The translations under genes and the position numbers were made by a program. From Chitinophaga sancti (GTDB lineage Bacteria; Bacteroidota; Bacteroidia; Chitinophagales; Chitinophagaceae), in contig NZ_CP139247.1 in assembly GCF_034087045.1 (NCBI RefSeq), positions 4,738,001-4,802,000 on the forward strand: DNA of 64,000 nt. The letters run 5' to 3'. Shown here piece after piece: positions 9,283-47,700 of the stretch. Numbering within the stretch: the stretch's first letter is position 1; each line of letters begins with the position of its first letter. The notes below the pieces were generated by a model that did not search any database, had not been told where the DNA came from, and saw only the letters and a program-made list of their open reading frames with translations.

Positions 9283-9420
9283 GGAAGATTTAATAGTTTT
9301 CGGTTACGGGTAAAGCGAATGAGAACTCTGAAATGCTAATCATCTTTAGTTACAGGAAAATGCGATTGAGGATTTTACCTGAAAGCTGTTAATAGTCTTC
9401 ACTTACTGGCAATGCCGCCA
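9283..9420 (-). repeat. Decayed tandem repeat of the MacB-ATPase gene 3' end, about 3 copies
   Basis: The ATPase gene ends [12 protein letters not shown] at 9389. Downstream on the minus strand the same tail recurs at about 9336-9363 (frame-shifted, TAG at 9336) and at 9290-9316 as ALPVTENY-stop (TAA at 9290). Stop-to-stop distances are 53 and 46 nt. The spacers between them also resemble each other. The array fills the 109-nt gap up to the permease ATG at 9279. Confidence 0.7.
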
Positions 9421-10135
9421 GCACTGCCCTTGCATTTTGTACCAATGAATTTGCCGTATCCTTCATCACTTTCCCATCTTTTAAAACAATCGTTCTGCTA
9501 CTAAACCCCGCTATATCCGGCTCATGTGTCACAAATACAATTGTCTTCTTCTGCACCTGGTTCAATTCCTGCATCAATGACATGATCTCATAAGAAGTCC
9601 TTGAATCCAGGTTCCCTGTCGCTTCATCCGCCAATATCATTACCGGTTCATTTACCAATGCCCTTGCTATCGCTACCCGCTGCTGTTGCCCGCCGGATAG
9701 TTCGCTGGGCATATGATGTAGCCGGTTGCCTAGTTTTACGGCCTCCAATGCCGCAATCGCTCTTTCTTTTCTTTCCGTAGGAGTGATCTTTTTATTATAA
9801 AACAAGGGCAACTCTACATTCTCCAATGCAGATGTACGTGGCAGCAGATTATATGCCTGAAATACAAACCCTATCTTTTCATTTCTGAGTCTGGCCAGTT
9901 CATTCCGATTGAGTGAAGCAATGTTTACTTCATCCAGTAAATAATCACCCGAACTGGGTTTGTCAAGGCAACCCAATGTATTCAATAACGTTGTTTTGCC
10001 AGAACCGCTACTCCCCATGATGGTCACGAATTCTCCTTCCTGTACAGTGAATGACACGCCTTTTAACGCTCTCACTATTTCTGTGCCCATCTGGAATTCA
10101 CGTTTTATCTCCTGAAGATTTAATATTGTTTTCAT
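9389..10135 (-). CDS. MacB-like ABC transporter ATP-binding protein
   Basis: A 248-residue ATPase of the LolD/MacB class: Walker A GSSGSGKT at 41-48, Q-loop [10 protein letters not shown], signature LSGGQQQR, Walker [14 protein letters not shown] and H-loop FVTHEPD. It hydrolyses ATP to drive the permease at 8074-9279. Its ATG overlaps the adaptor stop by 4 nt, so the two are translationally coupled. The tail after the ATPase core (about 20 residues) ends in the sequence that is duplicated downstream. Confidence 0.96.
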
Positions 10136-11214
10136 TTCGTAATAATTGAATCTTTTGGACTGATACCTGCCATAACCTGTACATGTGTATTATCATCCAG
10201 CCCCGTCTGAACCATCGTTTCGATCAGGGAATCACCTCGCTTGATCCATACGTAGCGGCACTTGTCTTTATGTACCTGTGGTTTTATTTTGTATTGGGTA
10301 GTCGTGAGCGAATCGGGATAGTAGTTCAACGCTTTAGAGCTTATTAATAAAGCACGCGGTACTTCTTTAGTATAAATCGTAATATTCGCTGTCATGCCCG
10401 GTTTCAATTTCAATTCATCATTAGGTGCATAAATGATCGTCGTATAAGTCACCACATTGGCACTTACCTTTGGTTGTAGCCTTACATCTGAAATAGTTCC
10501 TTTAAATACCTCATCTACATAAGCATCTACTGTAAACGACACCCGTTCTCCCTTTTGAATATCTCCGATGTCTGCCTCGTCTACATCTGCCTGCACCTGC
10601 ATTTGCTTAATGTCTTTTGCCAATACAAATAACGTAGGTGTTGTAAATGAGGACGCTACCGTCTGACCAATGCTCACATTCCTGCTAAGCACCACGCCGT
10701 CAATAGGTGCCAGGATATCTCCATAAGAAAGGTTCTTTTGTGCTGACCGTAATGTGGCTTCTGCATTGGCAACGCCCGCTATTGCTGCATTGTAATTGTT
10801 TAATGCGATGTCGTAATCTGCCTTGCTGATAGAACCGGTATTGTACAGGATCTCCTGTCTATGGAAATTACTTTTATTATAAGCCAGTGTACTTTGCTGT
10901 GTGGCCAACGCTGCCATATTCTGATCTACTGTAGCCTGGAGTAATGATTTATCCAGTTGCGCGAGTAACTGACCTTTGTGTACTACAGAATTAAAATCTG
11001 CATTGATCATGCTGATAATACCCGAAACCTGTGTGCCTACAGATACTGTATCCAGTGGTGCGATGGTGCCGGTAGCGGTAACAGACTGGGAGATGCTGCC
11101 ATAAGTTGCCTGTTCTACCGGGAGCACGATACGCGGTTTTTTACGGCTGATGAGCAATGCCGTACAGGCAATTGCTGCAATAAGGAGGGATGCTATTGTA
11201 AGGGTCTTTTTCAT
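10132..11214 (-). CDS. MacA-like periplasmic adaptor (HlyD/RND-MFP family)
   Basis: A 360-residue adaptor with one N-terminal membrane anchor (residues about 5-22). It shows the barrel-sandwich halves (SVTATGTIAPLDTVSVGTQV and GDILAPIDGVVLSRNVSIG) around a coiled-coil hairpin, then a beta-barrel segment (LKPGMTANITIY). It bridges the MacB-like permease to TolC. A coupled gene order TolC-MacA-MacB ATPase-permease supports this. The ATG lies in the last copy of the 56-bp array and overlaps that copy's TGA as ATGA. Confidence 0.95.
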   Translation of the reverse strand: MKKTLTIASLLIAAIACTALLISRKKPRIVLPVEQATYGSISQSVTATGTIAPLDTVSVGTQVSGIISMINADFNSVVHKGQLLAQLDKSLLQATVDQNMAALATQQSTLAYNKSNFHRQEILYNTGSISKADYDIALNNYNAAIAGVANAEATLRSAQKNLSYGDILAPIDGVVLSRNVSIGQTVASSFTTPTLFVLAKDIKQMQVQADVDEADIGDIQKGERVSFTVDAYVDEVFKGTISDVRLQPKVSANVVTYTTIIYAPNDELKLKPGMTANITIYTKEVPRALLISSKALNYYPDSLTTTQYKIKPQVHKDKCRYVWIKRGDSLIETMVQTGLDDNTHVQVMAGISPKDSIITK

Positions 11215-11438
11215 TTTTGATTATAATAGAATTCGTAAATTTTGATTGCCAATATAGCGTTGTATTTCGTTTTTGATTATAATAGAATTTGTAAATTCTT
11301 ATCGTCAGTGCATTGTTGTATTTCGTTTTTGATTATAATAGAATTTGTAAATTCTTATCGTCAATACAGCGTTGTATTTCATTGTTGATTATAATAGAAT
11401 TCGTAAATTTTTATCGTCAGTGCGGCATTGTATTTTGC
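11211..11438 (-). repeat. Tandem array, 56-bp unit, 4 copies, made of the tolC 3' end
   Basis: The element TTATAATAGA starts at 11221, 11277, 11333 and 11389, an exact 56-bp period. The fourth copy on the plus strand is the real end of tolC (KIYEFYYNQQ-stop at 11379). The next two encode FYYNQKR because TGA became CGA. The copy next to macA encodes FYYNQK-stop, and that TGA (11211-11213) overlaps the macA ATG (11212-11214). The unit corresponds to nearly the last 19 codons of tolC, and the array occupies the whole 164-nt gap. Confidence 0.95.
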
Positions 11439-12620
11439 CTGTATAAACTGTTGCAGTGCCTGTATATACAATTCTTTTTGCTGCAGGTATTCTACCATAT
11501 TAGACACGCCTAATGCCAGTTCCTGGTTTGCGATATTATACACCTCTTCATTGTATTTGAAAGCCTGTTCTGCTGCTGAAAACTGGCTCTGTGCATTGAT
11601 CGCATTCAGGTAGTATTTTTCAATATTAGCGGCCAGTGTCGTCTTTGTATCATTCAGATTGATCTTTGCCTGACCAATATTGATCTTTGCATTTTCTATA
11701 TTGGTCTTGTTTTGCCTTTTAGAAAAGATGGGAACTGATAATGAAATGCCTGCCTGCTTATAAAAGCCATTTCCCAACCCGGAAATATCATTGAAATAAC
11801 TACTCCCAATTGTGCCGCTCACACTCAGCGTAGGATAATAACCCGCCTTCGCTTTAGCAAGTCCCAACTGCGCCACCTGAATTTGTAACTGGTTTTCTTT
11901 TACTTCCGGACGGTTATTTAATGCATACTCCTGTACCGCTGCCAGTGAAGGAACTTCACTTTTCGAAATGATCGTATCTGGTGTAGCAATTTCAAACTGC
12001 ACTTCGGTGGGTAATTGTAACAATTGTTTTAGTGACAACAGGTCCTGTTTGATGGTATTCTCCGCAGAGATCAGGCTGTATTCATCATTAGCTAACTGCG
12101 ATCTGAGTTGGGTGACATCTTTTCGCGCCACGCTTCCCACAGCAAGCTTTTGCTCTCCTTGTTGCAGCTGTGCCTTTGAGGTATTCACTACATTTTGCTG
12201 GTATACTGCGGTTTCCTTATCCAATAATATAGTGAGGTAGTATTGAATTATATTTAGCGTGATATCATTCTCCGTAGCCAGTACATTTTGATTTGCTGCC
12301 TCGAGGGAGAGTTGTTTCTGCTGTATGTCTTTTTGCAGGTAGCCACCTTCATAAAGGGTGAGTGCCGTATTCAAAGTATAAGATCCAATATTGAGGTGCT
12401 TTTGAAAATACTGTGTAGCAGAGCCGGACAAACTGGGTAATTGGGCCGATTTAGACAGGTAATAGTTCTGCTGTGCTGTTTGCTGATTGTAGCGCTGGGT
12501 ATTGACCTGTATATTGTTCTTTTTGGCAAATGCAATACAGGTAGCCAGATCCCATCTGACCTGTGCTGTGGTGCGCAGCCCGACAAGTAAACAAAATATA
12601 AGGATAGCATTTCTGATCAT
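11379..12620 (-). CDS. TolC-family outer-membrane efflux protein
   Basis: A 413-residue protein with a signal peptide (about residues 1-19, ending RTTAQ) and the doubled OEP coiled-coil architecture: VRWDLATCIAFAKKNNIQ near the N-terminus, NNRPEVKENQLQIQ in the middle and alternating Ala/Gln/Leu helices. It supplies the outer-membrane channel for the MacA/MacB-like pump encoded downstream. It starts 93 nt after the LytTR regulator. Its 3' end is the source of the 56-bp array. Confidence 0.95.
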   Translation of the reverse strand: MIRNAILIFCLLVGLRTTAQVRWDLATCIAFAKKNNIQVNTQRYNQQTAQQNYYLSKSAQLPSLSGSATQYFQKHLNIGSYTLNTALTLYEGGYLQKDIQQKQLSLEAANQNVLATENDITLNIIQYYLTILLDKETAVYQQNVVNTSKAQLQQGEQKLAVGSVARKDVTQLRSQLANDEYSLISAENTIKQDLLSLKQLLQLPTEVQFEIATPDTIISKSEVPSLAAVQEYALNNRPEVKENQLQIQVAQLGLAKAKAGYYPTLSVSGTIGSSYFNDISGLGNGFYKQAGISLSVPIFSKRQNKTNIENAKINIGQAKINLNDTKTTLAANIEKYYLNAINAQSQFSAAEQAFKYNEEVYNIANQELALGVSNMVEYLQQKELYIQALQQFIQAKYNAALTIKIYEFYYNQQ

Positions 12621-12662
12621 GCCCCAAAGAAAGTAAGGAGCGATGGTCTAAAAAAGCAGGTT

Positions 12663-12689
12663 CGATACGACAAGGTCGGAAACCGATAG
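12663..12689 (-). promoter_or_regulatory. Possible LytTR-type direct repeat before tolC
   Basis: On the plus strand CGATA occurs at 12663 and 12684, 21 bp apart (GGTTCGATACG and AAACCGATAGG), in the 93-nt gap between the regulator gene and tolC. Two short direct repeats about two helical turns apart are the usual target form of LytTR regulators. The motif is short and the call tentative. Confidence 0.3.
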
Positions 12690-12713
12690 GAAGGGATTAA
12701 AAATAGATGGGGG

Positions 12714-13442: not shown

Positions 13443-14458
13443 GCGATGGCCAGTTTTAAGTGTATGCTGAATTCTTTGTTTGCTTTATTATCGTCTACAA
13501 TCAGGGTATGCCGACCCGGATATAGCAGGTTGAGGCGGCGGCGTGTATTGGTTAGTCCGATACCGTTGCTTTCTTCCAGTTCACCCCCTCCGGAACCGAA
13601 CGAGGAATTGCGGATTTCTATTGCTATTTGATTGTGGGTATGGGTGACGCTCATATAGATAAAGCTGGGGTATATACTACTGATTCCATGCTTATAAGCA
13701 TTCTCTATAAAAGGGAGAATGATCATAGGTGCTATGGGCACATCCTCAATAAAAGCGGGTTTTTCAAAGATGATCTGTACATCAGGGGGCACCCGCAGGC
13801 GCATCAGCTTATTATAACTTTCTACAAATTCCAGCTCTTTTTCCAGTGTTGTATTTTCACTATTGTACAAGACATACCGCATCATATGAGAAAGTGTATA
13901 GATAGAATCTTTCGCCTTCGCGGTATCCTGGCCTGTTAGCCCGTAAATAGTGTGTAAAACATTAAAGAAGAAATGCGGGTTAATCTGTGTTTTCAGAAAG
14001 GCAAGCTCGCTACCGATCTTTTGGAGCTGGTCCTGCTGGATCTTTTGGGTAATAACGATGATCACCCCAATGCCGCAGACCAGTATTGTCATCAGCACAG
14101 CCCCCATATCGCCTGTAGGAGAGGTATTACCGGCGTTGCTGGCGGGAAGGTTCTTTTCTACGACTTCAGTAAAGCGGATGGCATTATCGATCCGGTTATT
14201 TAATATAGAGACCCCGAAGAGTACGGCCAATAGTACTAAAGCAAACAAGGTGCCTTTATTCCGGTATAATAATTTCGGTAGCAAGACTTTAATTACCAGG
14301 AAATAGGCGCCTGTCCAATAGAGAAACAAAGAAAACTGTTTGAGCCAGACCTCGATGGGAAATGTATGTGAAAGGGTATAAAAGGGCAGGAAGGTGAAGA
14401 CTACCAACCCTAGCAGCACCATGAAATGGGCGGAGAGGAATATTTTCTGAATGGTCAC
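13439..14458 (-). CDS. LytS-like sensor histidine kinase (His_kinase family PF06580 type)
   Basis: A 339-residue kinase with four membrane segments before residue 145, then KTQINPHFFFNVLHTIYGL with phospho-acceptor H162, and an ATPase domain with FIENAYKHGI and a GIGLTNTRRRL glycine motif. The start codon is GTG at 14458; no in-frame ATG is near upstream. No periplasmic sensor domain is evident, so the membrane part probably senses membrane or envelope state. Partner of the LytTR regulator downstream. Confidence 0.94.
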   Translation of the reverse strand: MTIQKIFLSAHFMVLLGLVVFTFLPFYTLSHTFPIEVWLKQFSLFLYWTGAYFLVIKVLLPKLLYRNKGTLFALVLLAVLFGVSILNNRIDNAIRFTEVVEKNLPASNAGNTSPTGDMGAVLMTILVCGIGVIIVITQKIQQDQLQKIGSELAFLKTQINPHFFFNVLHTIYGLTGQDTAKAKDSIYTLSHMMRYVLYNSENTTLEKELEFVESYNKLMRLRVPPDVQIIFEKPAFIEDVPIAPMIILPFIENAYKHGISSIYPSFIYMSVTHTHNQIAIEIRNSSFGSGGGELEESNGIGLTNTRRRLNLLYPGRHTLIVDDNKANKEFSIHLKLAIA

Positions 14459-14583
14459 TTTGAGCGTTCTATCTCTCTAAGTGACAAAAAAAAATCCAGA
14501 AATGCAAATAGTCGTTCAAATACCGGGAAACCTGCAGATCTACCCGGGAGGGATTCATTTTTGATAACGGTAGGTATGCAGAT

Positions 14584-15089
14584 CTATAATTCGCTGTCGA
14601 CTTATGGCTGTGCTGAAAATCGCTTATTCAATCCTATAATTCCTTGCCGACTTATGGCTGTGCTGACAATCGCTTATTCAATCCTATAATTCCTTGCCGA
14701 CTTATGGCTGTGCTGCCAGCCACTTATTCAAATCCTATAATTCCTTGCCGACTTATGGCTGTGCTGACAATCGCTTATTCAAATCCTATAATTCCTTGCC
14801 GACTTATAGCTGTGCTGACAATCGCTTATTCAAATCCTATAATTCCTTGCCGACTTATAGCTGTGCTGACAATCGCTTATTCAATCCTATAATTCCTTGC
14901 CGACTTATGGCTGTGCTGACAATCGCTTATTCAATCCTATAATTCCTTGCCGACTTATGGCTGTGCTGCCAGCCACTTATTCAAATCCTATAATTCCCTG
15001 TCGACTTATAGCTGTGCTGACAATCGCTTATTCAAATCCTATAATTCCTTGCCGACTTATGGCTGTGCTGCCAGCCACTTATTCAAATC
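14584..15089 (-). repeat. Tandem array, 50/51-bp unit, 10 copies, carrying the esterase 3' end
   Basis: CTATAATTC starts at 14584, 14634, 14684, 14735, 14786, 14837, 14887, 14937, 14988 and 15039. The last copy holds the end of the esterase gene (DLNKWLAAQP-stop, TAA at 15057). Other copies encode either the same tail or an altered tail with a run like LNKRLSAQL-stop. Copies 3, 8 and 10 carry the GCCAGCCAC variant, the rest GACAATCGC or a close form. Copies 2-3 resemble 7-8, so a block of about 253 bp was probably duplicated. Total about 506 bp before the kinase gene. Confidence 0.97.
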
Positions 15090-15680
15090 CTCCAGCACCT
15101 GCTGATTGATCTGGTGCCCCAATCCATACTCATGATAGCTCAGTTTCACCTGCATCCCCTCCAAAAACTCCTTCGCCTCTCTTGCATAATGAATTCCCAG
15201 CGTGCCATCTGCCGTACCATGCGATACAAACACCCGCAATTCAGGTGCCTGTTTCACCAAAAAGGGCTTTACTTCTTCCAGTATCCTGCTACTTAAAATA
15301 ATAATCCCCTTTACCAGCTTTGGATCACTCAATCCTACCGTATAACTCATAATACCACCCTGGCTAAACCCACCTAAATACACTTCATCCAAATGGTACT
15401 TCGCCTTCATCTCTTCTACAAATTGCCTGATCAGTTCCCTGCTTTCCTTTTCCTGCTGTACATTATACACGGGCTTACCTGTAGAGAAGTCTACATTATA
15501 CCATGCATATCTGCCACCGCCCATTGCAAAATGCCCCTGCGGACAAATCACATAATAATCCTTTGGTAAATAATCTACCAGGCTAAACAGGTCCTTTTCA
15601 TTACTCCCCACACCATGCATGAGAATTAACGCTTTCTTCTTTTCTGTCTTTACTGTCGGCTCATGAATCAAATATTCCAT
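15057..15680 (-). CDS. Phospholipase/carboxylesterase-type alpha/beta hydrolase
   Basis: A 207-residue hydrolase when started at ATG 15680 (MEYLIHEPTV). ILMHGVGSNEKDL is the oxyanion-side segment, GGFSQGGIMSY the nucleophile elbow with its serine, SHGTADGTLG carries the aspartate and YGLGHQI the histidine. The length matches the YpfH/carboxylesterase family. A longer frame to 15737 adds a hydrophobic N-terminus and begins next to the dioxygenase stop; it cannot be excluded. Likely substrates are short acyl esters. Confidence 0.88.
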   Translation of the reverse strand: MEYLIHEPTVKTEKKKALILMHGVGSNEKDLFSLVDYLPKDYYVICPQGHFAMGGGRYAWYNVDFSTGKPVYNVQQEKESRELIRQFVEEMKAKYHLDEVYLGGFSQGGIMSYTVGLSDPKLVKGIIILSSRILEEVKPFLVKQAPELRVFVSHGTADGTLGIHYAREAKEFLEGMQVKLSYHEYGLGHQINQQVLEDLNKWLAAQP

Positions 15681-15738
15681 GCTGTTCACTTGTTTTAAAA
15701 ATGGCAAAAGGGCAATCAGATAGTAATACAAAGGCATA

Positions 15739-16611: not shown

Positions 16612-16617
16612 GTTATA

Positions 16618-16625
16618 CAAAAGTA
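16618..16625 (-). promoter_or_regulatory. Candidate -7 element TACTTTTG before the dioxygenase gene
   Basis: TACTTTTG on the minus strand matches TAnnTTTG and ends 6 nt before the ATG at 16611. It lies just beyond the distal end of the 64-bp array, so the gene may have its own promoter and not depend on the crp-like gene. Confidence 0.5.
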
Positions 16626-16670
16626 CCACATGAAGGAGGTTGGTCCCAATGATTTGGATCAAGAAATTAC

Positions 16671-17210
16671 TTATGCTGGGAAATACGGCTTTTGATGCAG
16701 AAAGTGAATAGCCACCAGGGATGCTAAAAATCATATATGCTGGGAAATGCGGCTTTTGATGCAGTAGGTGAATAGCCACCAGGAATGCTAAAAATCATTT
16801 ATGCTGGGAAATACGGCTTTTGATGCAGAAAGTGAATAGCCACCAGGGATGCTAAAAATCATATATGCTGGGAAATGCGGCTTTTGATGCAGTAGGTGAA
16901 TAGCCACCAGGGATGCTAAAAATCATATATGCTGGGAAATGCGGCTTTTGATGCAGTAGGTGAATAGCCACCAGGAATGCTAAAAATCATTTATGCTGGG
17001 AAATACGGCTTTTGATGCAGAAAGTGAATAGCCACCAGGAATGCTAAAAATCATATATGCTGGGAAATGCGGCTTTTGATGCAGTAGGTGAATAGCCACC
17101 AGGAATGCTAAAAATCATTTATGCTGGGAAATACGGCTTTTGATGCAGAAAGTGAATAGCCACCAGGAATGCTAAAAATCATTTATGCTGGGAAATGCGA
17201 CTTTTGATGC
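16671..17210 (-). repeat. Tandem array, 64-bp unit, 8 full copies plus the gene end
   Basis: ATGCTGGGAAAT starts at 16673, 16737, 16801, 16865, 16929, 16993, 17057, 17121 and 17185, an exact 64-bp period. The copy at 17185 is the end of the Crp/Fnr gene (IKSRISQHK-stop, TGA at 17179). Each copy keeps that tail in one frame with TGA, ending QHK or QHI; the most distal ends QHK with AAG TAA. Two subtypes (CAGAAAGTG and CAGTAGGTG) partly alternate, pointing to 128-bp steps. About half of each unit is coding tail and half is spacer. Confidence 0.98.
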
Positions 17211-17760
17211 GGCTGAGGGTTTCGGGGGTCAATCCCAGGTAAGAAGCGATCATATGTTGCGGTACCCGTTGTACGATATTCGGGTATACATTTACAAAGG
17301 CCTTGTACTGCTCATCCGGCGAAAGACTGATCATATCCCGGGTCCTTTTTTGCAGGGCGATATACGCTTCGGTGATGAGTATACGGTTATAGGTCTCATA
17401 CTTAGGCATTTTCAGTAGCAATTCTTCGTGAGCAGGGCGGCTGATAAGGCATAATTCACAGTCTTCCAGCGCCTCAATATTCTGGGTAGCAGGTTCTTCC
17501 CTGAGAAAACTACACAGATCTCCCAGTGACCATCCTTCCAGCGCAAAAGCCGTAATGTGCTCATGGCCTTCCAGATCCGTCACATAAGTCCTGAGCGTAC
17601 CTTTTTCGACCAGGGCAATATAGCGGCAAATGTCTCCTTCCTGCAGGAAAATCTGGCGTTTCCGCAGGGTTTTAAGGGTCAGATGTGATACTATTTCTGC
17701 TTCTTCCTGCGGGGTGAGGGGCACTTTTTCATTGACTTTGCTGAGAAATACTTCGTACAT
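17179..17760 (-). CDS. Crp/Fnr family transcriptional regulator
   Basis: A 193-residue regulator with a cyclic-nucleotide-binding-like domain (IFLQEGDICRYIALVEKGTLRTY) and a C-terminal HTH (QHMIASYLGLTPETLSRIKSRI). The nucleotide-binding arginine pattern of true CRP is not evident, as usual for this Bacteroidota subgroup, so the effector is unknown. It is divergent from the acetylesterase at 17802, separated by 41 nt, and may regulate it. Its last codons are the source of the 64-bp array. Confidence 0.93.
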   Translation of the reverse strand: MYEVFLSKVNEKVPLTPQEEAEIVSHLTLKTLRKRQIFLQEGDICRYIALVEKGTLRTYVTDLEGHEHITAFALEGWSLGDLCSFLREEPATQNIEALEDCELCLISRPAHEELLLKMPKYETYNRILITEAYIALQKRTRDMISLSPDEQYKAFVNVYPNIVQRVPQHMIASYLGLTPETLSRIKSRISQHK

Positions 17761-21676: not shown

Positions 21677-21677
21677 C

Positions 21678-30935: not shown

Positions 30936-30972
30936 CACTTCATTTCCCTTTTTGCTCACTTCATTTCCCTAT
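30936..30972 (+). promoter_or_regulatory. Candidate LytTR direct repeat before the RND operon
   Basis: CACTTCATTTCCCT occurs at 30936-30949 and 30957-30970, 21 bp apart, 47 bp before the -7 element at 31019. The complement holds GGAAATGAAG, which shares GAAATGRA with the repeat upstream of the kinase gene. Confidence 0.55.
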
Positions 30973-31018
30973 TTGCGCTTTTCATTCATATTTAAATAAA
31001 TGACGCAATTGTAGTCGG

Positions 31019-36400: not shown

Positions 36401-36580
36401 GCGATGGCCACGGGAGCGGGTTCTGAGGTCAAGAACGGAATGGCGTGGGTGATTATTGGTGGTTTGACCAGTTCTATGATCCTGACGTTGTTTGTAGTAC
36501 CAGCGATGTACCTGATCATTGATAAACTGAAAATGCGTTTACAAAAGAAAAAACAACCCGCGTACCATGAAGCTCATTAG
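33464..36580 (+). CDS. RND efflux transporter, AcrB/MdtB class (HAE family)
   Basis: A 1038-residue inner-membrane pump with the 12-helix, duplicated RND plan. SIAEIAVKRPLLILVIF begins helix 1; LSLVVGILVDDSIVVLENIYR in helix 4 carries the paired Asp of the proton relay; GLVSKNAILIVDFTNH lies in helix 10 with its Lys-Asn. The protein exports drugs, bile-like amphiphiles or lipids by proton antiport. Substrate is unknown. The last 14 nt overlap the next gene. Confidence 0.96.
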   Translation: MSIAEIAVKRPLLILVIFTVLILFGLECYHSLNYNLLPKMEVPTVTVSTVYAGASASEVETSVTKKLEDAFASVEGLDKITSKSQEGVSQVVITFKSGTNIDRAEADIQRKADQAQNDLPKDIDKPLVNKVNLEEAPVVKAGVTSTLAPRALYDLVDKQLRPILQNVSGVGQVNIIGGDEREIQVNVDQGKLNAYGITITQVTDAVNNANQSFPAGSIETRDQQVTIQYDANVTSVSQIRELIVVQRPGGGSVYLKDVAEVVDATAKATAINHINGLPSIGIQIVKQSDANAVNVSRDVKKAFTNLEQQYKDSKVKFTISSDQSTYTLRSADAVMEDLVLAVIIVGVVMLAFLHSFRSSMFVMVALPSSMIPTFIAMYLLGFSLNLMTLMALSLVVGILVDDSIVVLENIYRHLEAGTDRKQAALDGRNEIGFTAMAITLVDVVVFLPLAMSGGIIGMILREFSLVVVISTLMSLFVSFTVTPMLASRFGRLEHLTKDTWWGRLNLGFEHIIDVVKENYGKLLKVALHKKRYLLSGVIVLIIGSIMLVVNGFVGAAFIPSGDQGELMINLELAPDASIYQTNMLTQQVEKHILARPEVDKVFSSIGFLTGGVAGTGNNSNKAELTVTLVDAKKRNMTAEEFGIMIQRELTASVPGAKVTASPTSITGNASTAPIQIAVKGVNLKDVRSVAEQYMKITAGVPGTQFVQLSVKDPKPQIEVKLDREKMTLLGLNASQVGGALQNAFSGNDKSKFKQSGNEYDILVSLDRFNRSDINNVRNLSFTNNDGQTFVLSQFAEVIEGIGESVLERSDRLNSITVNANVAGRPTGTVATEIKEKVASVKLPEGVSIEYLGDVKNQGDAFGSLGLALITAILLVYLIMVALYESVIYPFVVLFSIPVALIGALLALALSMETLNIFSIIGMIMLLGLVSKNAILIVDFTNHLKEKGAKVEDALVEAGEERLRPILMTTLAMILGMLPIAMATGAGSEVKNGMAWVIIGGLTSSMILTLFVVPAMYLIIDKLKMRLQKKKQPAYHEAH

Positions 36581-37781
36581 TAGTACATTGTTCTGTGCAC
36601 TGGTGTTCCCGATAGGAGCAAGTGCGCAGGACTCGCTGGCACGAAATGCAAAAGTTCAGGACTCGCGTGTACGCATTGCAAATGCGCAGGACTCGCTGGC
36701 ACGAAATGCAAAAGTTCAGGACTCGCGTGTACGCATTGCAAGTGCGCAGGACTCATCCGCACGCATTGCAAAGGCACAGGACTCATCTGCACGCGCTGCA
36801 AAAGTTCAGGACTCGCTTGCACGCATTGCAAGATCGCAGGACACACTCACGCGCTTTGCAAAAGTACAGGATTCACTTGCGAAGGTCCAATTGAAAAAGG
36901 CCTATATCGTAGATCTCCTGCTTAAAAGTCCTGGCATGCGCCCTGCAATGATCTCTACGACGTTCATCAGCAGGGGGCAAATGGAAGGAAACTTAAAAGG
37001 GAAGAACATATTGAGTGGAGATTTTGGGCAGCAACGTACAGAAGCACTGCTAAATCTACCGGTGAAGAATTGGGGGAAGAGTGGTATGGTGACGGCAACA
37101 ATCCTCTATGCGCATACTAATTATCAGCTTTCTGATATAAAGGGCCTGGATATTACGGAATCTTCATTATCCAAAAATACTGTAGGCCTGACCACCACCT
37201 ATCGCAGAGTAGACTCCCTGTTTGGGCGTATGTTTATTTCATCTGCCAGTGTGGTCCTTTTAACAGGTGATGGTGGCGGTATTAATAAGTATGCGGTGAT
37301 GGGGAATGGAATGGTATTGCTGAAACAAACGGCGCAGACGACATTGATGGTAGGTTTACAATTGATCATTGATCCAACTAACATTGCACCGGTCATTCCG
37401 TTGCTTGTTTATCAGAAGCGATTACCCAATGGGGTTGATCTGAATATCACGATCCCACAGCAATTGACATTGCGGAAGACCCTGAGTAAAAATTGCTGGG
37501 CGAGTTTCGGTACGATCTTATCCTCCTCTGTATCCTTCTTCAATTATAGCTCACCTAATATACCGCGAAATGCGAATTTCAGCACACTGGATCTGAAGAC
37601 AGGGCCGGGATTGGAATACAAACTGGGTAAGTTATTGCTGGCAGGAGTGAGTGCAGGTTTATGGACGCCGGTGATGTACAGACAGTATGGTCGGTGGGAG
37701 AAGTCGAGTCGTTATTTCCTTGATGGCAAAGTAGATACGACGCCCTATATTAATTTGAATTTATCATTAATACCTTTTTGA
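36567..37781 (+). CDS. Outer-membrane protein with nine decapeptide repeats, DUF6268-like barrel
   Basis: A 404-residue protein: signal peptide 1-20 (ending GASA), nine 10-residue repeats of the type QDSLARNAKV at 21-110, then a beta-rich domain of about 280 residues ending in F, as expected of an outer-membrane barrel (ending LNLSLIPF). The repeat region is charged and helical, possibly a periplasmic coiled coil or spacer. It overlaps the RND gene by 14 nt and ends the operon; a role near the pump is inferred from context only. Confidence 0.75.
   Translation: MKLISSTLFCALVFPIGASAQDSLARNAKVQDSRVRIANAQDSLARNAKVQDSRVRIASAQDSSARIAKAQDSSARAAKVQDSLARIARSQDTLTRFAKVQDSLAKVQLKKAYIVDLLLKSPGMRPAMISTTFISRGQMEGNLKGKNILSGDFGQQRTEALLNLPVKNWGKSGMVTATILYAHTNYQLSDIKGLDITESSLSKNTVGLTTTYRRVDSLFGRMFISSASVVLLTGDGGGINKYAVMGNGMVLLKQTAQTTLMVGLQLIIDPTNIAPVIPLLVYQKRLPNGVDLNITIPQQLTLRKTLSKNCWASFGTILSSSVSFFNYSSPNIPRNANFSTLDLKTGPGLEYKLGKLLLAGVSAGLWTPVMYRQYGRWEKSSRYFLDGKVDTTPYINLNLSLIPF
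36627..36896 (+). repeat. In-frame coding array, 30-bp unit, 9 copies
   Basis: Nine 30-bp units beginning with CAGGACTC or a close form encode QDSxARxAxx decapeptides. Units 1-2 and 3-4 are nearly identical at DNA level, a 60-bp block duplication; later units have drifted. The array starts exactly after the predicted signal-peptide cleavage site. Confidence 0.97.
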
Positions 37782-39938: not shown

Positions 39939-39978
39939 TTTCAATCTTTATTATTTTCAGACAAAAATAGGAACATTA

Positions 39979-40008: not shown

Positions 40009-40046
40009 CATAAAGTAATGGGTCACGATTTGTAATTGACTTCCGC

Positions 40047-40054
40047 TAATTTTG
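40047..40054 (+). promoter_or_regulatory. Candidate -7 element TAATTTTG for the NmrA-type gene
   Basis: TAATTTTG matches TAnnTTTG and lies 24 nt before the ATG at 40079, 38 bp downstream of the HxlR operator candidate. Confidence 0.5.
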
Positions 40055-40078
40055 ATAAATAATTTAAATAACGGGATT

Positions 40079-40939: not shown

Positions 40940-40946
40940 TAACCTG

Positions 40947-40981
40947 AAAAATCCCGACTGGCCTGGCCTGTCGGGATTTTT
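40947..40981 (+). terminator. Hairpin terminator
   Basis: AAAAATCCCGAC pairs with GTCGGGATTTTT around an 11-nt loop directly after the NmrA-type gene; the T-run is part of the stem. Confidence 0.85.
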
Positions 40982-41149
40982 AAAATATCATAGTGTCTAA
41001 ACGACATTTAACCCCAAAAAATCCCTAAATTACATCACGTCGTACCTGATGTGACAATTCCCGTTAGAAAAATTGTAGCCGGAAGTAAAACCCTGGTTGG
41101 TCCGATCCGTTGTCCCATCTTCATTTTATTTTACTAAACTCCCAACGTT

Positions 41150-44100
41150 ATGAAGCAACACACATTGCCCCTGGCATTGAAGAGGATCCTATGTGTTCCC
41201 CTCTTCCTCCTTATTCTGTTACCGCTCACCACCCGAGCCCAGCAAACCATCAAAGGGAAAGTCTCGGATGATGCTAAAAACCCCCTAGCCGGTGTTTCTA
41301 TCGCCATCAAAAACACCCACCGTGGTACCGTCACCGCGCCCGACGGCTCTTACAGCATCTCTGCCGCCAATGGCGAAACCCTGGTATACACCTTTATCGG
41401 TTATAATACCCTGGAAATCACCGTCAAACCTGGTGTCCAATACAACATTACCCTCGCCCCAAACGTCCAGAATCTGGATCAGATGGTCGTGATCGGTTAT
41501 GGTACGCAAAAGAAAAGTTCCCTCACGGGTTCTGTCGCTTCCGTCAATGGCAAGACCCTCAATGAGTTGCCCGTAGCCAGTGTACAGCAGGCCTTGCAGG
41601 GGCGTGTACCGGGTGTGACTGTCACTAATAATGGTGCTCCTGGTACAGACCCCATTGTTCGGATCAGGGGTATCAGCTCCATTAGTTATGCCTCGGATCC
41701 CTTGTACGTGATCGATGGATTTCCGACTTCCAACCTCACCAGCTTTGACAGCAAAGACGTCCTCTCTGTCGAAGTGCTGAAAGACGCCAGTGCTGCAGCT
41801 ATCTATGGTTCCCGCGCTACCAATGGGGTCGTTATTATTACTACTAAAAAAGGTAACCGCGGCAACAAAGCAGAAGTAAGACTCGATACCTACACAGGTG
41901 TACAAACTGCCTGGAAAAAGATCGACCTGCTCAATACCCAGCAGTATCTACAATATGAACGTGCCCTGAATGGTGCCGCCGGCATTTCCAAACCACCACG
42001 TCTTGAAGATGCGAACTGGAATTCACCTATTTACGACGGCACTTCCCAGACGTATGCGCAGACCAATACTGACTGGCAGGATGCCTATTTCAAAAGTGGC
42101 TTAATCACCCAGTCCAACCTTTCAGTAAGCGGCGGGAATGACAAATCTACTTTTTACATGTCCAGCGGTTACTTCAAGCAGGACGGGATTGCGCAGGGTG
42201 TCAACTATGAGCGTGGCAACTTCCGTATCAATTCAGAACACAACATCAGTCGTATCTTTAAGGTAGGAGAGAACCTGCTTGTCGCGTATTCCAATCAACG
42301 GTATGACAACACCTCCGGCAACCGAACCCGCCTTGCAAACGTAATTCGCGCTTTGCCATATCTGCCAGTGTACGATCCCACCACGCAAGGTGGTTTCCGG
42401 AATGCAGAAAACAGTGTGGATGGAGCTGACCCCACCAACCCTGTAGAAGACGCGCTACTGCTGGGCGATGCGCACCGTAAACTTTTCAAACTCTTAGGTA
42501 CTGTTTATGCACAGGTCAACTTTACCCCCTGGCTCAGTTTCCGCTCTGTATTTGGTGCAGACTACGCCGGCCAGTTTCAGCATCAATTTACTCCCATCTA
42601 TAATGACAAAGGCCGGAATTCCACTGTTGCGTCCATCAATGATCAGCGGGCCAACAGAACAACCTTACTCTACACAGAACAACTGACTTTAGATAAACAT
42701 TTTGGCAGGCACCATGTCAATGCCATCGCTGTATTTGAAAGACAGCCTGCCAGTAACTATGGGGAATCCCAGACAGGGAACCAGAGTACAAATGACATCG
42801 AGACACTGGTAGGTGCAACGAACGTATCCGCCTATTCTACCACCACAGCCACACTCATACAATCCTACATCGGCCGTCTGAATTACGAGTTCGGTGAAAA
42901 GTATTTACTGAGTGCTGCTATTCGCCGGGATGGTTTATCCGTATGGGCGCCTGGAAAGAAATTTCAGAGCTTCCCTTCTTTCTCCGCCGGTTGGCGTATA
43001 GACCAGGAAAGGTTTATGAAACCTGTTACCGCAGTTTCCGAATTAAAACTACGGGGTGGTTGGGGCGTTACAGGTCTGAATGCTATCGGTATTTTTCCGG
43101 CTTTGCAAAACTCTATATTGGCCAATGAATATCCCTGGCAGGCTATCGTGCAGGCTAATGGTGCTACCTATCCATTTGGTAATACCGTTACTGTGGGCAA
43201 TGCATCTTATTATAACCAGTTGGCAAGTGCTGACCTGGAATGGGAAAAGACCAAGCAGGTCAATGTGGGGTTGGACCTTGGGCTCTTTGATAATACCATC
43301 ACCTTCACTGCAGAATGGTATCGCCGTTTGACAGACAACCTGATCCTCACGATTCCCACACCTCCCAGCTTTGGTTATGGTGGCGCGGGGTCACAGCTCA
43401 ATGCCGCCAGTATGAAAAATACAGGGGTAGACCTTGCACTGGGCTATAACAAAACGAAAGGTGTTTTCAGGTGGAATGTAAATGGCAATATTGGTTTTAT
43501 CAGGAATAAGATCCTTAGTCTGAACACGCCGAATGCTACCATTGATGCAGGCTCCGACGCCGACTTCGGGAATGGCAACATGACTCGTACGGTGGCTGGA
43601 CAGCCGATTCAGTCATTCTATGGTTATGTCACCGATGGCATTTTTCAGAACCAGACCGAAGTAGATAAAGGGCCTGAGCAGCTTTCGGGTACAGACCCTG
43701 CCAAGAGCACAGCGCCTGGTGACATCCGGTTCAAAGATTTAAATGGGGATGGGGCAATCACATCTGCAGATCGTACCTTCCTGGGTTCTTATATTCCTAA
43801 ATATTCTTACTCCCTGAATTATAATGCGAACTGGCACCAGTTCGATCTTTCTGTTTTCTTCCAGGGGGTGCAGGGCAATAAAATCTACAATGGAACCCGG
43901 GTGTTGCGTGAAGGTATGGCTCGTTTATTTGGTGCGGGTACAGAGGTGTTGAATGCCTGGACGCCGGAGCATACGAATACTGATATTCCACGTGCTATAA
44001 GTGGGGATCCGAATTCGAATCTGCGGGTATCTAACCGCTGGATTGAAGATGGTTCTTACCTGAGGTTGAAGAATCTGATGATTGGGTATACACTGCGTAA

Positions 44101-44287
44101 TGGTGCTATTCGGTATATCAGCAGTTTTAGGGTGTATGTGTCTTCTCAGAACCTGCTCACTTTTACAAAATATAAAGGATGGGATCCTGAAATAGGGTCT
44201 AAAAATACTACGCTCACCAATGGTATTGATTATGGGCAGTACCCTGCAGCGCGTTCATTCCAGTTGGGTTTGCAGGTAGGTTTTTAA
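41150..44287 (+). CDS. SusC-like TonB-dependent outer-membrane transporter
   Basis: A 1045-residue transporter: signal peptide to about residue 30 (TTRAQ), CarboxypepD_reg-like domain (IKGKVSDDAKNPLAGVSIAI), TonB-box region MVVIGYGTQKKSSLTGSV, plug (RVPGVTVTNNGAPGTD, GSRATNGVVIITTKKG) and a 22-strand barrel ending QVGF. It has no STN domain, so it should not use FecR signalling. It pairs with the SusD at 44479; nearby GH43 and GH115 suggest a xylan-derived oligosaccharide. Its last codons recur downstream. Confidence 0.95.
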   Translation: MKQHTLPLALKRILCVPLFLLILLPLTTRAQQTIKGKVSDDAKNPLAGVSIAIKNTHRGTVTAPDGSYSISAANGETLVYTFIGYNTLEITVKPGVQYNITLAPNVQNLDQMVVIGYGTQKKSSLTGSVASVNGKTLNELPVASVQQALQGRVPGVTVTNNGAPGTDPIVRIRGISSISYASDPLYVIDGFPTSNLTSFDSKDVLSVEVLKDASAAAIYGSRATNGVVIITTKKGNRGNKAEVRLDTYTGVQTAWKKIDLLNTQQYLQYERALNGAAGISKPPRLEDANWNSPIYDGTSQTYAQTNTDWQDAYFKSGLITQSNLSVSGGNDKSTFYMSSGYFKQDGIAQGVNYERGNFRINSEHNISRIFKVGENLLVAYSNQRYDNTSGNRTRLANVIRALPYLPVYDPTTQGGFRNAENSVDGADPTNPVEDALLLGDAHRKLFKLLGTVYAQVNFTPWLSFRSVFGADYAGQFQHQFTPIYNDKGRNSTVASINDQRANRTTLLYTEQLTLDKHFGRHHVNAIAVFERQPASNYGESQTGNQSTNDIETLVGATNVSAYSTTTATLIQSYIGRLNYEFGEKYLLSAAIRRDGLSVWAPGKKFQSFPSFSAGWRIDQERFMKPVTAVSELKLRGGWGVTGLNAIGIFPALQNSILANEYPWQAIVQANGATYPFGNTVTVGNASYYNQLASADLEWEKTKQVNVGLDLGLFDNTITFTAEWYRRLTDNLILTIPTPPSFGYGGAGSQLNAASMKNTGVDLALGYNKTKGVFRWNVNGNIGFIRNKILSLNTPNATIDAGSDADFGNGNMTRTVAGQPIQSFYGYVTDGIFQNQTEVDKGPEQLSGTDPAKSTAPGDIRFKDLNGDGAITSADRTFLGSYIPKYSYSLNYNANWHQFDLSVFFQGVQGNKIYNGTRVLREGMARLFGAGTEVLNAWTPEHTNTDIPRAISGDPNSNLRVSNRWIEDGSYLRLKNLMIGYTLRNGAIRYISSFRVYVSSQNLLTFTKYKGWDPEIGSKNTTLTNGIDYGQYPAARSFQLGLQVGF

Positions 44288-44460
44288 TAACTGCTTTCTT
44301 ACCGCTGGCGCTGGCTATGGTAGTATCCTGCTGGTGGTTGCAGTCAGTTGATGTTAAAAGCAGGATTTTAATCAGGAGCCGCAACTGAAAGATCTGGAAA
44401 AGGAATTATATCATTTGTCCAGCCTCCTTTCGGTTGATTTTACAAGTAGGATTTAAATCA
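44237..44460 (+). repeat. Decayed tandem repeat of the susC 3' end, 3 copies, about 84-86 bp
   Basis: CAGTACCCTGCAGCGCG at 44237 and TAGTATCCTGCTGGTGG at 44321 are 84 bp apart, and the following TAA codons (44285 and 44369) are also 84 bp apart. A third copy ends at GTAGGATTTAAATCA, about 86 bp further on, with the stop changed to AAA. Similarity is clear but imperfect. The array fills the gap to the susD ATG at 44479. Confidence 0.75.
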
Positions 44461-44478
44461 TATACAAAAACTGAAAAC

Positions 44479-46029
44479 ATGTATAAGTACATATTCATCG
44501 CCTGTTTGCTTCTTGGTGGACTAGGCTGTACCAAAGACCTTGACAAAACAAATCCAGGGTATGCTACCCTTGATAACTATTTCAAAAACAGCACAGAATT
44601 GCTAAGTGGCACCAACGCTATTTACTCCACCTTCCACGCCAGCACCCTCATTGCCCGTGAATGGTTTTTCGTTCATGACCTCCGCAGCGACGACGTCTCG
44701 TCCGGTGGTGGTCAGTTGGAAGTACCCCGCGGTCAGATCCTGAACGGCGCTACTACGGCAGATAATTCCGTGATAAGTTCTGTATGGCAGGGATTATATA
44801 TCATCATCCATCGTTCCAATACAGTTATTGGCAGTGCACCTCTTGTCACCGATAATGACGCCGTTCGTGACCAGTGTGTAGCCCAGGCGAAGTTCTTCCG
44901 GGCATGGGCCTATTTTGAATTAGTGACCCTGTGGGGACCAGTTCCTATGTACACACAGGTCGTAACTGAATCCAACCAGTTCCAACCCCGCGCAGCAGAA
45001 ACTGCTATCTATGACCAGATCATCCAGGACCTCACAGATGCCGCCGGAACACTCAGCGCAACTTATGCAGCCGCTGATCTGGGGCGGGTATCATCTGGCG
45101 CGGCCTATGCTATGCTGGGCAGAGTATACATGCAGAAAGGCGACTACACATCTGCCAAGACAGCATTGTCACAGATAGTTAGTTCCAATCTTTATCGCCT
45201 TGTAGACAACTTTAATGACAATTTCCTGGAAGAGACTGAGTTCAATGCCGAATCTATCTGGGAAGCTGTCTTTGTAGACAAAGGTGATAATTCCTTTGAC
45301 TGGGGTGGTACTGGTGATGGCGCAGGTAATGCACAATCTACCATCCGCAACCAGGAATATTGTCCGCTGGCATGGCGTAATTTAATTCCATCTAATAAAT
45401 TTTTGAACGAATTTGAAAACACTGCTTCTGGTGCCGCTAAAACAGACCCACGCTATAAATGGACGGTGTATGAAACGGGTGATCCCTTTAACAATGACGC
45501 AGATGTACTGACAGATGCGATGCAAAATGGGAACTCTTCTACTGTAAATGGCGTGACGAAAAAGATCAGCTGGCGCAAGTTTATGCTCATTTACAAGCAG
45601 AGTCTGTCCACGGCTTCTTATCACCCCGGTGGCAATAACCAGCGTATCATCCGCTATGCAGATGTGTTGCTTATGCTGGCAGAGTGTGCGAACGAAACCG
45701 GTGATATAGCGGGAGCTGTCAGCTACCTGAACATGGTTAGAGATCGTCCTTCTGTAGCAATGCCACATTATCCTACTGCCCAATTTCCAACCGGATCAAA
45801 GGATCAGGTGACAAAAGCAATAATGCATGAAAGAACGGTTGAATTGGGAGATGAAGAGGTGCGTAACCGCGATATCTTAAGGTGGCGGAAAATGGGGTAT
45901 TTCACGACTGATCCTATTAGTTATTTCAGAAAGAATCGGGATGAGTTATTACCTATTCCTCAATCAGAAATTGATAATAATCCTGCGTTGGCAGATGGGG
46001 GGATTGCCGCACAAAATTCCGGTTATTAA
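44479..46029 (+). CDS. SusD/RagB-family glycan-binding lipoprotein
   Basis: 516 residues from ATG 44479 (MYKYIFIACLLLGGLGC); lipobox LLGGLGC with C17. Tetratricopeptide-like helices (FFRAWAYFELVTLWGPVPM, AYAMLGRVYMQKGDY) and the C-terminal SusD domain (RYADVLLMLAECANE, ERTVELGDEEVRNRDILRW, NSGY). It caps the SusC barrel at the cell surface. The 45-nt upstream extension of the frame is the decayed SusC-tail repeat. Confidence 0.95.
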   Translation: MYKYIFIACLLLGGLGCTKDLDKTNPGYATLDNYFKNSTELLSGTNAIYSTFHASTLIAREWFFVHDLRSDDVSSGGGQLEVPRGQILNGATTADNSVISSVWQGLYIIIHRSNTVIGSAPLVTDNDAVRDQCVAQAKFFRAWAYFELVTLWGPVPMYTQVVTESNQFQPRAAETAIYDQIIQDLTDAAGTLSATYAAADLGRVSSGAAYAMLGRVYMQKGDYTSAKTALSQIVSSNLYRLVDNFNDNFLEETEFNAESIWEAVFVDKGDNSFDWGGTGDGAGNAQSTIRNQEYCPLAWRNLIPSNKFLNEFENTASGAAKTDPRYKWTVYETGDPFNNDADVLTDAMQNGNSSTVNGVTKKISWRKFMLIYKQSLSTASYHPGGNNQRIIRYADVLLMLAECANETGDIAGAVSYLNMVRDRPSVAMPHYPTAQFPTGSKDQVTKAIMHERTVELGDEEVRNRDILRWRKMGYFTTDPISYFRKNRDELLPIPQSEIDNNPALADGGIAAQNSGY

Positions 46030-46190
46030 AGAGAAAGGTTCTTTGGTGATAATGATGACCTGTCTGCCTTTACAAATTCCGGTTATTAAAGAGAAAGGTT
46101 CTTTGGTGATAATGATGATCTTTCTTCCTTTACAAATTCAGGTTATTAAAGAGAAAGGTTCTTTGGTGATTATGATGTTCCTTTCTTCCT
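46012..46190 (+). repeat. Tandem array, 60-bp unit, 3 copies, carrying the susD 3' end
   Basis: GGTTATTAAAGAGAAAGG starts at 46021, 46081 and 46141, exactly 60 bp apart. The first is the real end of susD (NSGY-stop). Each copy repeats ACAAATTC(C/A)GGTTATTAA, that is TNSGY-stop, in the same frame, followed by a 42-bp spacer. The array ends at the hairpin beginning at 46190. Confidence 0.97.
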
Positions 46191-46223
46191 TTTATCAGCA
46201 AAGACTAGGCTTTGCTGATAAAA
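46190..46223. terminator. Hairpin after the SusC/SusD pair
   Basis: TTTTATCAGCAAAG (46190-46203) pairs perfectly with CTTTGCTGATAAAA (46210-46223). No T-run follows on the plus strand. From 46224 to 46352 I see no feature. Confidence 0.65.
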
Positions 46224-46352
46224 GGGGGAGGGGTAAATAATTTGGACCATATTAACCTCTTTTCTATATAAAACCCAATGGAAGGGATCCTGCATATACG
46301 TATTCCTTCGCATAATTAGGAAATCCAGCAGGTAAGTTTGTATGAGTATTGA

Positions 46353-47399
46353 TCAATGACCTGCCTGATGTTGTATCGTTTCGGGATGTATCGTCTCAAT
46401 ACTTCCATCCGCCTTATAATGCAGCTCCGTCACCTTTACATTTCTCAAATAAGTCTTACCAGATAACTCTACGTCATGATAAAACAAATACCATTTCCCA
46501 TCTTTTTCAACAATAGAATGATGCGTAGTCCATCCCGTTACAGGTGTCATGATGATGCCTTTGTAATTGAATGGTCCATAAGGAGAATCGCCAATCGCAT
46601 AACACAAGTTATGTGTATCACCTGTTGAATAAGAAAAATAATACTTCCCTTTGTATTTATGAACCCAGGAAGCTTCAAAGAATCGTTTGTCATTTTCCTT
46701 TTCGTGAAATGGCTGTCCATGTTCATCCAAAATGACTACCTCTTTTACCGGTCCATCAAAACCAGTCATATCCTTTTTCAGTTTTGCGATTCTAGGTAAT
46801 GCCGCTACATCATCTACATTGCGATTCCCGGCAGCGCCATCATATTTGTTATGATCCCATTTTTGCAATTGTCCACCCCATATTCCTCCGAAGTACATAT
46901 AGAAACTCCCATTCTCATCTTTAAACACACAAGGGTCTATACTATAACTCCCCACAATTGGTTTTGGCAAAGCTTTAAACGGGCCTTCGGGTTTACTGCT
47001 GGTGGCTACTCCGATATGGAAGATTCCTGCACTATCCTTTGCCGGGAAGTATAAATAATAAGTGTGGTTTGCATATGCTGCATCTGGTGCCCATAATTGT
47101 TTGTTTGCCCAGGGAACGTCTTTTAAACTTAAGGCGACTCCATGATCTGTTACTTTACCACCTATATGATCTAATGATAGCACATGGTAATCTTTCATAT
47201 CAAAATGACTACCTAAGTCGTCCTCGGGTACACCTGTTGCTGTATCGTGCGAAGGGTAAATGTAAAATCGGCCATTAAATACGTGGGCAGAAGGGTCTGC
47301 TGTATAAATATGCTTTACCAGTGGTTGTGCTATTCCTTGCAGGGATGCGTAAAAACAAAACAACCATGAACATAAACAAACAATTAATATCCGGGTCAT
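46353..47399 (-). CDS. Glycoside hydrolase family 43-like, secreted
   Basis: A 348-residue enzyme with a signal peptide (to about residue 24, QGIAQ). The five-bladed propeller shows HIYTADPSAHVFNGRFYIYP with the catalytic base Asp, QLWAPDAAYANHTYYLYF, SIDPCVFKDENGSFYMYFGG with the pKa-modulating Asp, FFEASWVHKYKGKYYFSYS with the acid Glu, and TTHHSIVEKDGKWYLFYHD. GH43 enzymes are beta-xylosidases or arabinosidases. It is downstream of and co-directional with GH115, so xylan side-chain or backbone trimming is likely. Confidence 0.92.
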   Translation of the reverse strand: MTRILIVCLCSWLFCFYASLQGIAQPLVKHIYTADPSAHVFNGRFYIYPSHDTATGVPEDDLGSHFDMKDYHVLSLDHIGGKVTDHGVALSLKDVPWANKQLWAPDAAYANHTYYLYFPAKDSAGIFHIGVATSSKPEGPFKALPKPIVGSYSIDPCVFKDENGSFYMYFGGIWGGQLQKWDHNKYDGAAGNRNVDDVAALPRIAKLKKDMTGFDGPVKEVVILDEHGQPFHEKENDKRFFEASWVHKYKGKYYFSYSTGDTHNLCYAIGDSPYGPFNYKGIIMTPVTGWTTHHSIVEKDGKWYLFYHDVELSGKTYLRNVKVTELHYKADGSIETIHPETIQHQAGH

Positions 47400-47700
47400 A
47401 AGTTAGTGTTTTTTAAATTCCATTTTTGTAAAAGAATATTGGTGAATACTGGGAATCTACCAGTTTATATCCGGGTCATAAGTTAGTGTTTTTCAAATTC
47501 CATTTTTGTAAAAGAATATTGGTGAATACTGGGAATCTACCAGTTTATATCCGGGTTATAAGTTAGTGTTTTTCAAATTCCATTTTTGTAAAAGAATATT
47601 GGTGAATACTGGGAATCTACCAGTTTATATCCGGGTCATAAGTTAGTGTTTTTCAAATTCAATACTTTGTAAAACAATCCCGGGTGAATACTGGGAATAC
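47389..47700 (-). repeat. Tandem array, 80-bp unit, 3 full copies plus the GH115 gene end
   Basis: CCGGGTCATA or CCGGGTTATA starts at 47391, 47471, 47551 and 47631, exactly 80 bp apart. On the minus strand each unit holds the tail EFEKH-stop of GH115, then CTT, then ATGACCCGGATAT, the first codons of the GH43 gene. The start codon is kept in two internal copies and lost (ATA) in the one at 47557-47559; internal starts read MTRI-stop. The copy at 47631 is the diverged true end of GH115. Confidence 0.96.

Follow-up and report, generated by a model that had tools for sequence, protein, structure and literature searches.

Seven genes in a 64,000-bp stretch of the genome of Chitinophaga G000 (positions 4738001-4802000 of its 8.32-Mb single contig; hereafter the window) carry tandem arrays that span their stop codons. 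Arrays of this kind occur on gene ends elsewhere in the sampled genome, are young, continue to turn over between G000 and its sister genome G014, and cover stops in preference to starts. They are probably minisatellites of the variable-number tandem repeat (VNTR) type that have been filtered by selection. Such filtering probably explains the location of the arrays on gene ends and does not account for how numerous they are in this lineage; no special system has to be invoked for the location, and the view that one is required is not supported.

The arrays, first reported in a reading of the window from its letters alone (the sequence-only reading), and the genes whose ends they cover are as follows, in window coordinates, with arrays detected by Tandem Repeats Finder (TRF) marked as such:

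9283..9438, minus strand: decayed array, 3 copies (53/46 bp), 3' end of 9389-10135 (ABC ATPase gene)
9389..10135, minus strand: ABC transporter ATPase gene (Pfam PF00005)
11209..11435, minus strand: array of 56 bp x 4.1, covering the stop of 11379-12620 (efflux gene) and the start of 10132-11214 (HlyD-type gene) (TRF)
11379..12620, minus strand: outer membrane efflux protein (OEP) gene (Pfam PF02321)
14584..15091, minus strand: array of 51 bp x 10.0 with a higher-order 253-bp period, covering the stop of 15057-15737 (carboxylesterase-type gene) (TRF)
15057..15737, minus strand: phospholipase/carboxylesterase-type hydrolase gene (Pfam PF02230)
16672..17210, minus strand: array of 64 bp x 8.4, covering the stop of 17179-17760 (Crp-type regulator gene) (TRF)
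17179..17760, minus strand: cyclic-nucleotide-binding (Crp-type) regulator gene (Pfam PF00027)
41150..44287, plus strand: SusC-type TonB-dependent receptor gene (Pfam PF07715, PF13715)
44237..44457, plus strand: decayed array, 3 copies (84/86 bp), 3' end of 41150-44287 (TonB-dependent receptor gene)
44434..46029, plus strand: SusD gene (Pfam PF07980, PF14322)
46014..46192, plus strand: array of 60 bp x 3.0, covering the stop of the SusD gene 44434-46029 (TRF)
47387..47698, minus strand: array of 80 bp x 3.9, covering the stop of 47643-50336 (GH115 gene) and the start of 46353-47399 (GH43 gene) (TRF)
47643..50336, minus strand: GH115 glycoside hydrolase gene (Pfam PF15979)

TRF recovered five of the seven arrays, each covering the stop named by the sequence-only reading, and the arrays at stops 9389 and 44287 are decayed and fall under its threshold. 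The copies at 9389 occupy 9389-9406, 9336-9353 and 9290-9307 (spacing 53 and 46), and those at 44287 occupy 44261-44287, 44345-44371 and 44431-44457 (spacing 84 and 86), in agreement with the spacings first reported. Compared with 2,000 dinucleotide shuffles, the best copy at 9389 gave P = 0.0005 under both strict and lenient scoring and the best copy at 44287 gave P = 0.0035 (strict) and 0.0005 (lenient), placing both arrays above chance (P 0.0005 to 0.0035); the counterpart of the 44287 array in G014 gave P = 0.0005 under both scorings.

Read in gene orientation, the units are pieces of gene junctions comprising the gene end, the stop and spacer, and at 11379 and 47643 also the start of the next gene. 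The description of each unit as the last codons plus the stop was therefore correct in what it included and too narrow in omitting intergenic bases and, at these two junctions, the next gene's start. Six of the seven arrays lie between co-directional genes, as originally stated, and only that at 46029 lies at a convergent junction. Copies inside one array differ from one another. Of 20 units tested, 19 match nothing else in 864 kb of G000 (the exception is the intergenic array L011), which bears out the proposal that units differ from gene to gene and are not a dispersed element. Three properties of VNTRs were tested and all were found: head-to-tail repeats, a locus-specific unit and a copy number that varies between related genomes.

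The frequency of arrays on gene ends was estimated from two samples of G000, one of 864 kb (40 evenly spaced 20-kb stretches and the window) and one of 1.22 Mb (38 of those 40 stretches and a contiguous 464 kb including the window). The contiguous 464 kb is array-rich, and the sample of G014, a separate single-contig genome with approximately 91-95% nucleotide identity to G000 across the window, is mostly its counterpart. Genes were called with a simple codon-usage caller, which in 50 kb of annotated E. coli recovered 40 of the 47 stops and came within 30 bases of 34 of the 47 starts; its errors make the starts and some spacer lengths uncertain and lead to an undercount of arrays reaching over a start as well. 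In a test that does not use TRF, the last 50 bases of each gene and 10 further bases were aligned to the next 400, with starts treated as the mirror image, and an alignment scoring at least 34, which has a null rate of 2/9,848, was taken as a strong echo.

Strong echoes were found at 28/836 stops and 2/840 starts in G000, and at 23/398 stops and 5/395 starts in G014, which amounts to approximately 3 to 6% of sampled gene ends in the two sisters. None so strong was found in the other sampled congeners, with 0/450 stops in six genomes (G046 0/45, G065 0/135, G062 0/114, G007 0/57, G008 0/51, G001 0/48) and 0/446 starts. A further set of G065 stops near SusD genes gave 0/70 strong echoes (loci L316 and L322 in this set overlap or adjoin L297), 80 named Bacteroidota loci gave 0/918 at stops and 1/928 at starts, and 50 kb of E. 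coli under its own annotation gave 0/47 at stops. At score 29, single stop echoes appear elsewhere, for example in G065 (1/135) and G062 (1/114). Within G000, the region G000:C1:600000-3100000, which gene-strand bias suggests surrounds the replication origin, contained 0/188 sampled genes with a stop echo compared with 28/648 elsewhere (Fisher P = 0.001, for a region picked after seeing the data).

The same preference is seen in arrays detected by TRF. With a period of at least 35, the 864-kb sample contained 15 arrays on stops, 5 between genes and 2 in genes, and the window is denser than average, with 5 stop-spanning arrays in 64 kb versus 10 in the other 800 kb. The 1.22-Mb sample contained 36 arrays outside genes with a period of 35-130 (a count that excludes two in-gene arrays in this period range, one array of period >130 and arrays 30 bases or less from a stretch end), of which 19 covered a stop, 1 a stop and a start, 0 a start only and 16 lay between genes. 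Uniform placement of founding units touching the spacer predicts 4.4, 1.1, 4.6 and 26.0, respectively. Arrays including a stop thus number 20 where 5.5 are expected, none of 20,000 runs reached the observed stop count, and the absence of start-only arrays has P = 0.007 under the same null. Position is accordingly the common property of the arrays, as had been proposed; stops are enriched beyond chance and units are not dispersed, the two points on which the sequence-only reading had said it would stand or fall. Its statement that the repeats always include the stop codon is too strong for the genome at large, where 16 of the 36 arrays outside genes miss the stop. The stop excess also depends on spacer length when spacer classes are compared, being near expectation for spacers of 100 bp or less (10 stop-including arrays versus 7.3, P = 0.09).

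The arrays are young. In a comparison of one regulator protein across 60 congeners, the nearest genomes after G014 were G046 (92%) and G065 (89%), followed by G007, G063 and G062 at 56-58%. All seven junctions read as single-copy in G046, which indicates a recent origin; outgroup junctions were judged by eye, and draft genomes may collapse arrays, although G062, G007, G008, G001 and G065 each consist of one contig. G000 and G014 have six of the seven arrays in common, and copy number differs at five of these. The 9389 array has approximately 5.6 copies of 45 bp in G014, and the single G046 junction is 10 bp; the 11379 array has 4.1 copies in G000 and 3.1 in G014, and the G046 junction is an overlapping ATGA. 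The 15057 array has 10.0 copies in G000 and 2.0 in G014, the 17179 array has 8.4 and 4.5, and both junctions are single in G046 and G065. The 47643 array is two units shorter in G014 and single in G046. At 44287, three copies are recognisable in G014 too, and the junction is single in G046, G065, G007 and G062; the SusD array at 46029 is a single copy in G014, G046, G065, G007 and G062. G065 has only more distant matches for the ABC (77%) and OEP (48%) genes, and weak decayed echoes are present at the ends of its ABC relative and its GH115 gene (P = 2e-4 and 4e-4, respectively, from simple shuffles at loci picked by eye).

Turnover extends beyond the window. In the contiguous 464 kb, 9 of 15 G000 stop echoes are shared with G014 (sister score of at least 27), 5 are unique and 1 has no orthologue; in the paired region of G014, 10 of 21 are shared, 9 are unique and 2 lack a full orthologue. 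A sister array exists for some of the unique echoes, which makes the resulting 14 gains or losses an upper bound. These gains and losses, together with the differences in copy number, support the earlier suggestion of an ongoing process. Two further loci, L185 and L186 (G014:C1:5665674 region), contain a duplicated ABC permease/ATPase-type junction (gene names assigned by eye) in which the copies are nearly identical in their gene-end half and have strongly diverged from the start of the next gene onward (by eye), as if the copies had been partially homogenised.

Under selective filtering, segments of approximately 40-170 bp would duplicate in tandem along the chromosome of the G000/G014 lineage, and the resulting arrays would then expand or shrink via slippage or unequal recombination among copies, with selection determining which duplications persist. 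A duplication inside a gene would be lost unless its length preserved the frame, and one spanning a start would put an additional start signal and a longer gap ahead of the gene and mostly be lost. A duplication spanning a stop would be tolerated, as its first copy would still provide the end of the upstream gene and its last copy the start of the downstream gene. In a gene-dense genome, tolerated duplications, presumably neutral, would accumulate on stops. One new 166-bp duplication in G014 has a direct repeat of 9-10 bp at its flanks (by eye).

Four lines of evidence together point to such a filter: the position of ordinary indels, the frame of in-gene arrays, the uniform position of the stop within units and the even decay of copies. 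Non-repeat indels of at least 15 bp between G000 and G014 lie 60 bp or less from the stop in 18/71 junctions and from the start in 2/71 (discordant 18 to 2, P = 4e-4), in a set of array-free co-directional junctions with a spacer of at least 121 bp in both sisters. This bias was counted per junction, since raw gap totals over-count single junctions. Among junctions with a single such indel and spacers of at least 60 bp, 6 have it near the stop, 3 in the middle and 1 near the start. The echo ratio of 28:2 does not differ from the indel ratio of 18:2 (Fisher P = 1.0, on small numbers), so that arrays show no stop bias beyond that of other indels.

In-gene arrays with a period of 30-170 keep the reading frame: 16/16 have periods divisible by 3 (from G000, G014, G065, G046 and the named loci, the G000, G014 and G046 arrays being partly orthologous), compared with 9/21 stop-spanning periods in G000 and 2/18 in G014. 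The position of the stop within the unit is indistinguishable from uniform (Kolmogorov-Smirnov P = 0.59, n = 20), giving no fixed geometry, and echoes do not favour convergent ends, with 21 at co-directional and 6 at convergent junctions compared with 546 and 223 among the controls. The uniform stop position, the lack of convergent bias and the indel count of 18 versus 2 do not support the suggestion that stop placement implies a special system. Copy identity is 0.85 upstream and 0.87 downstream of the stop (n = 23, P = 0.7). The idea that the gene-derived portion of the unit is better conserved was rejected, as both sides of the stop decay evenly. A reduced share of TAA among the stops of echo genes in G000 (P = 0.008) did not recur in G014 (P = 0.66) and was dropped.

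Several results weigh against this account. A filter should act in all relatives, so the stopless arrays of G065 count against it: with a period of 30-170, arrays on stops, between genes and in genes number 0, 6 and 4 in G065 and 21, 17 and 4 in G000, a stop share of 0/10 versus 21/42 (Fisher P = 0.003), and the other sampled genomes pooled give 0/21 (P = 3e-5). G065 has 0/205 strong stop echoes in total. For spacers of 200 bp or less, stop-including arrays still exceed the uniform expectation (14 versus 7.2, P = 0.001), and two weak in-gene arrays of shorter period, L009 and L021 (20 and 22 bp), are not multiples of 3. Microhomology estimated automatically at nine array breakpoints was barely higher than background (mean 4.1 versus 2.5 bases), several of the nine being badly defined, and the same estimate gave 3 for the 166-bp duplication. 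Searches for MutS-family and reverse-transcriptase genes gave no cause for the high duplication rate of the lineage, as neither the reverse-transcriptase matches (1-19 per genome) nor the MutS-family matches (5-8) separate G000 and G014 from G046 and G065. The lineage difference may reflect small numbers together with array age in genomes with a low rate, or a real process at gene ends. As a separate observation on the MutS family, G000, G014, G046 and G065 have 5 matches each and G007, G062, G001 and G008 have 6-8, among them adjacent pairs of frames of approximately 430-470 residues that did not turn up in G000, G014, G046 or G065.

A process directed at gene ends in the G000/G014 lineage, for example breaks or template switches at transcription or translation termination, is the first alternative to selective filtering, and an unlikely one. 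Among the sampled genomes, strong stop echoes occur only in G000 and G014, and the stop share of arrays differs between lineages at the significance given above, both of which would be expected of such a process. It would be expected less readily to leave the stop uniformly placed in the unit and convergent ends without preference, or to coincide with ordinary indels that are equally biased to stops; in-gene and between-gene arrays also occur and vary, the two weak decayed end echoes of G065 lie outside the lineage, and the two family searches yielded no candidate factor. It is similarly doubtful that one Chitinophaga branch gained, or lost control of, a sequence-independent duplication specific to gene ends that is still running.

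Somewhat less likely again is that the arrays were selected for widening the gap between genes, through looser translational coupling or mRNA structure past the stop. The unrepeated junctions of G046 include tight ones (the 10-bp spacer at ABC and the overlap at OEP), longer rnc-fpg1 repeats accompany more fpg1 mRNA in the M. tuberculosis complex (PMC2734929), and the 60 bases at the 28 echo stops fold at -9.1 kcal/mol compared with -7.6 kcal/mol for 792 controls (P = 0.02). The folding difference is weak evidence, as the folded stretches can already hold repeat copies. Selection for spacing also sits poorly with the wide differences in copy number between sisters, the even decay on both sides of the stop, the 19 of 20 units that match nothing else and the convergent position of one of the seven arrays.

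A mobile repeat family landing at gene junctions in the manner of the mycobacterial interspersed repetitive units (MIRU) would agree in unit length (40-100 bp, PMC2734929) and junction position (PMC12548453). It is very improbable and already contradicted, as 19 of 20 units are unmatched in 864 kb and each unit is its own gene end. Tandem repeats are classic misassembly sites, and an assembly artefact is the least credible explanation, given that copies differ within arrays, two arrays are decayed and most recur in the separate single-contig genome G014 with other copy numbers.

Comparison with described repeats is in keeping with VNTR-type arrays. In the M. tuberculosis complex, the rnc-fpg1 array (also ETR-F or VNTR3239) is the nearest described case found; it comprises 279-358 bp of direct repeats in 55- and 79-bp units, occurs in one lineage and varies in copy number, the junction in other mycobacteria being 1-54 bp (PMC2734929). 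Both are variable direct repeats at gene junctions; the Chitinophaga arrays differ in that the unit holds the stop and last codons and that approximately 3% of sampled gene ends are echoed. MIRU, an apparently mobile repeat family inserting at start codons (PMC12548453; PMC2734929), likewise forms direct repeats of 40-100 bp at junctions with little harm to the neighbouring gene, whereas the Chitinophaga units are unrelated between genes and lie at stops, showing neither homology to one another nor insertion at starts. In Planctomycetota, structural variation outside coding sequence often stems from intergenic tandem repeats, a likeness to the present arrays, although a relation to stop codons is not among the features given in the available text (PMC9426551). 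The STAR elements of staphylococci are also intergenic direct repeats, and differ in forming an interspersed family (PMC3532100). In the open-access literature, to which the search was confined (subscription papers lay outside it), arrays that span stops were not found described as a class of their own. The sequence-only reading had named no described system of this kind; a related array at a gene junction, the rnc-fpg1 VNTR, has been described.

Other repeats were noted in the window and in the wider samples. A 14-bp x 30 array at 4799-5220 is fully intergenic, and the corresponding place in G014 shows no more than a short degenerate stretch (by eye); a 21-bp x 2 array at 30936-30976 begins right after a stop codon. 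Two arrays are in frame within genes, one of 30 bp x 8.5 at 36618-36880 in gene 36567-37781, with two units fewer in G014, and one of 60 bp x 3.7 at 49773-50034 in the GH115 gene, with about one unit in G014. Locus L247 of G065 (14075-15196) holds 12 copies of a 92-bp unit in an array that separates two divergent genes and is distant from every stop. L061 of a Segetibacter contig (12-549) contains two adjacent arrays with the common motif TCATTGCGAGCGCAGCGAAGCAATCC, apparently a dispersed repeat. Rfam families gave 0 matches in the window at gathering score, and plasmid records gave no near-identical match to gene 33464-36580.

The original observation is sound and broader than the window alone showed, and a special system in this lineage is a possibility at low odds. 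If selective filtering is the correct explanation, the G000/G014 lineage would provide a natural experiment in which young duplications mark where the chromosome tolerates new DNA, after stops and not before starts. If the duplications are instead directed to gene ends, they would represent a mutational process tied to these positions for which no description was found. In either case, changes in copy number between co-directional neighbours would readily supply variation in the distance between genes.

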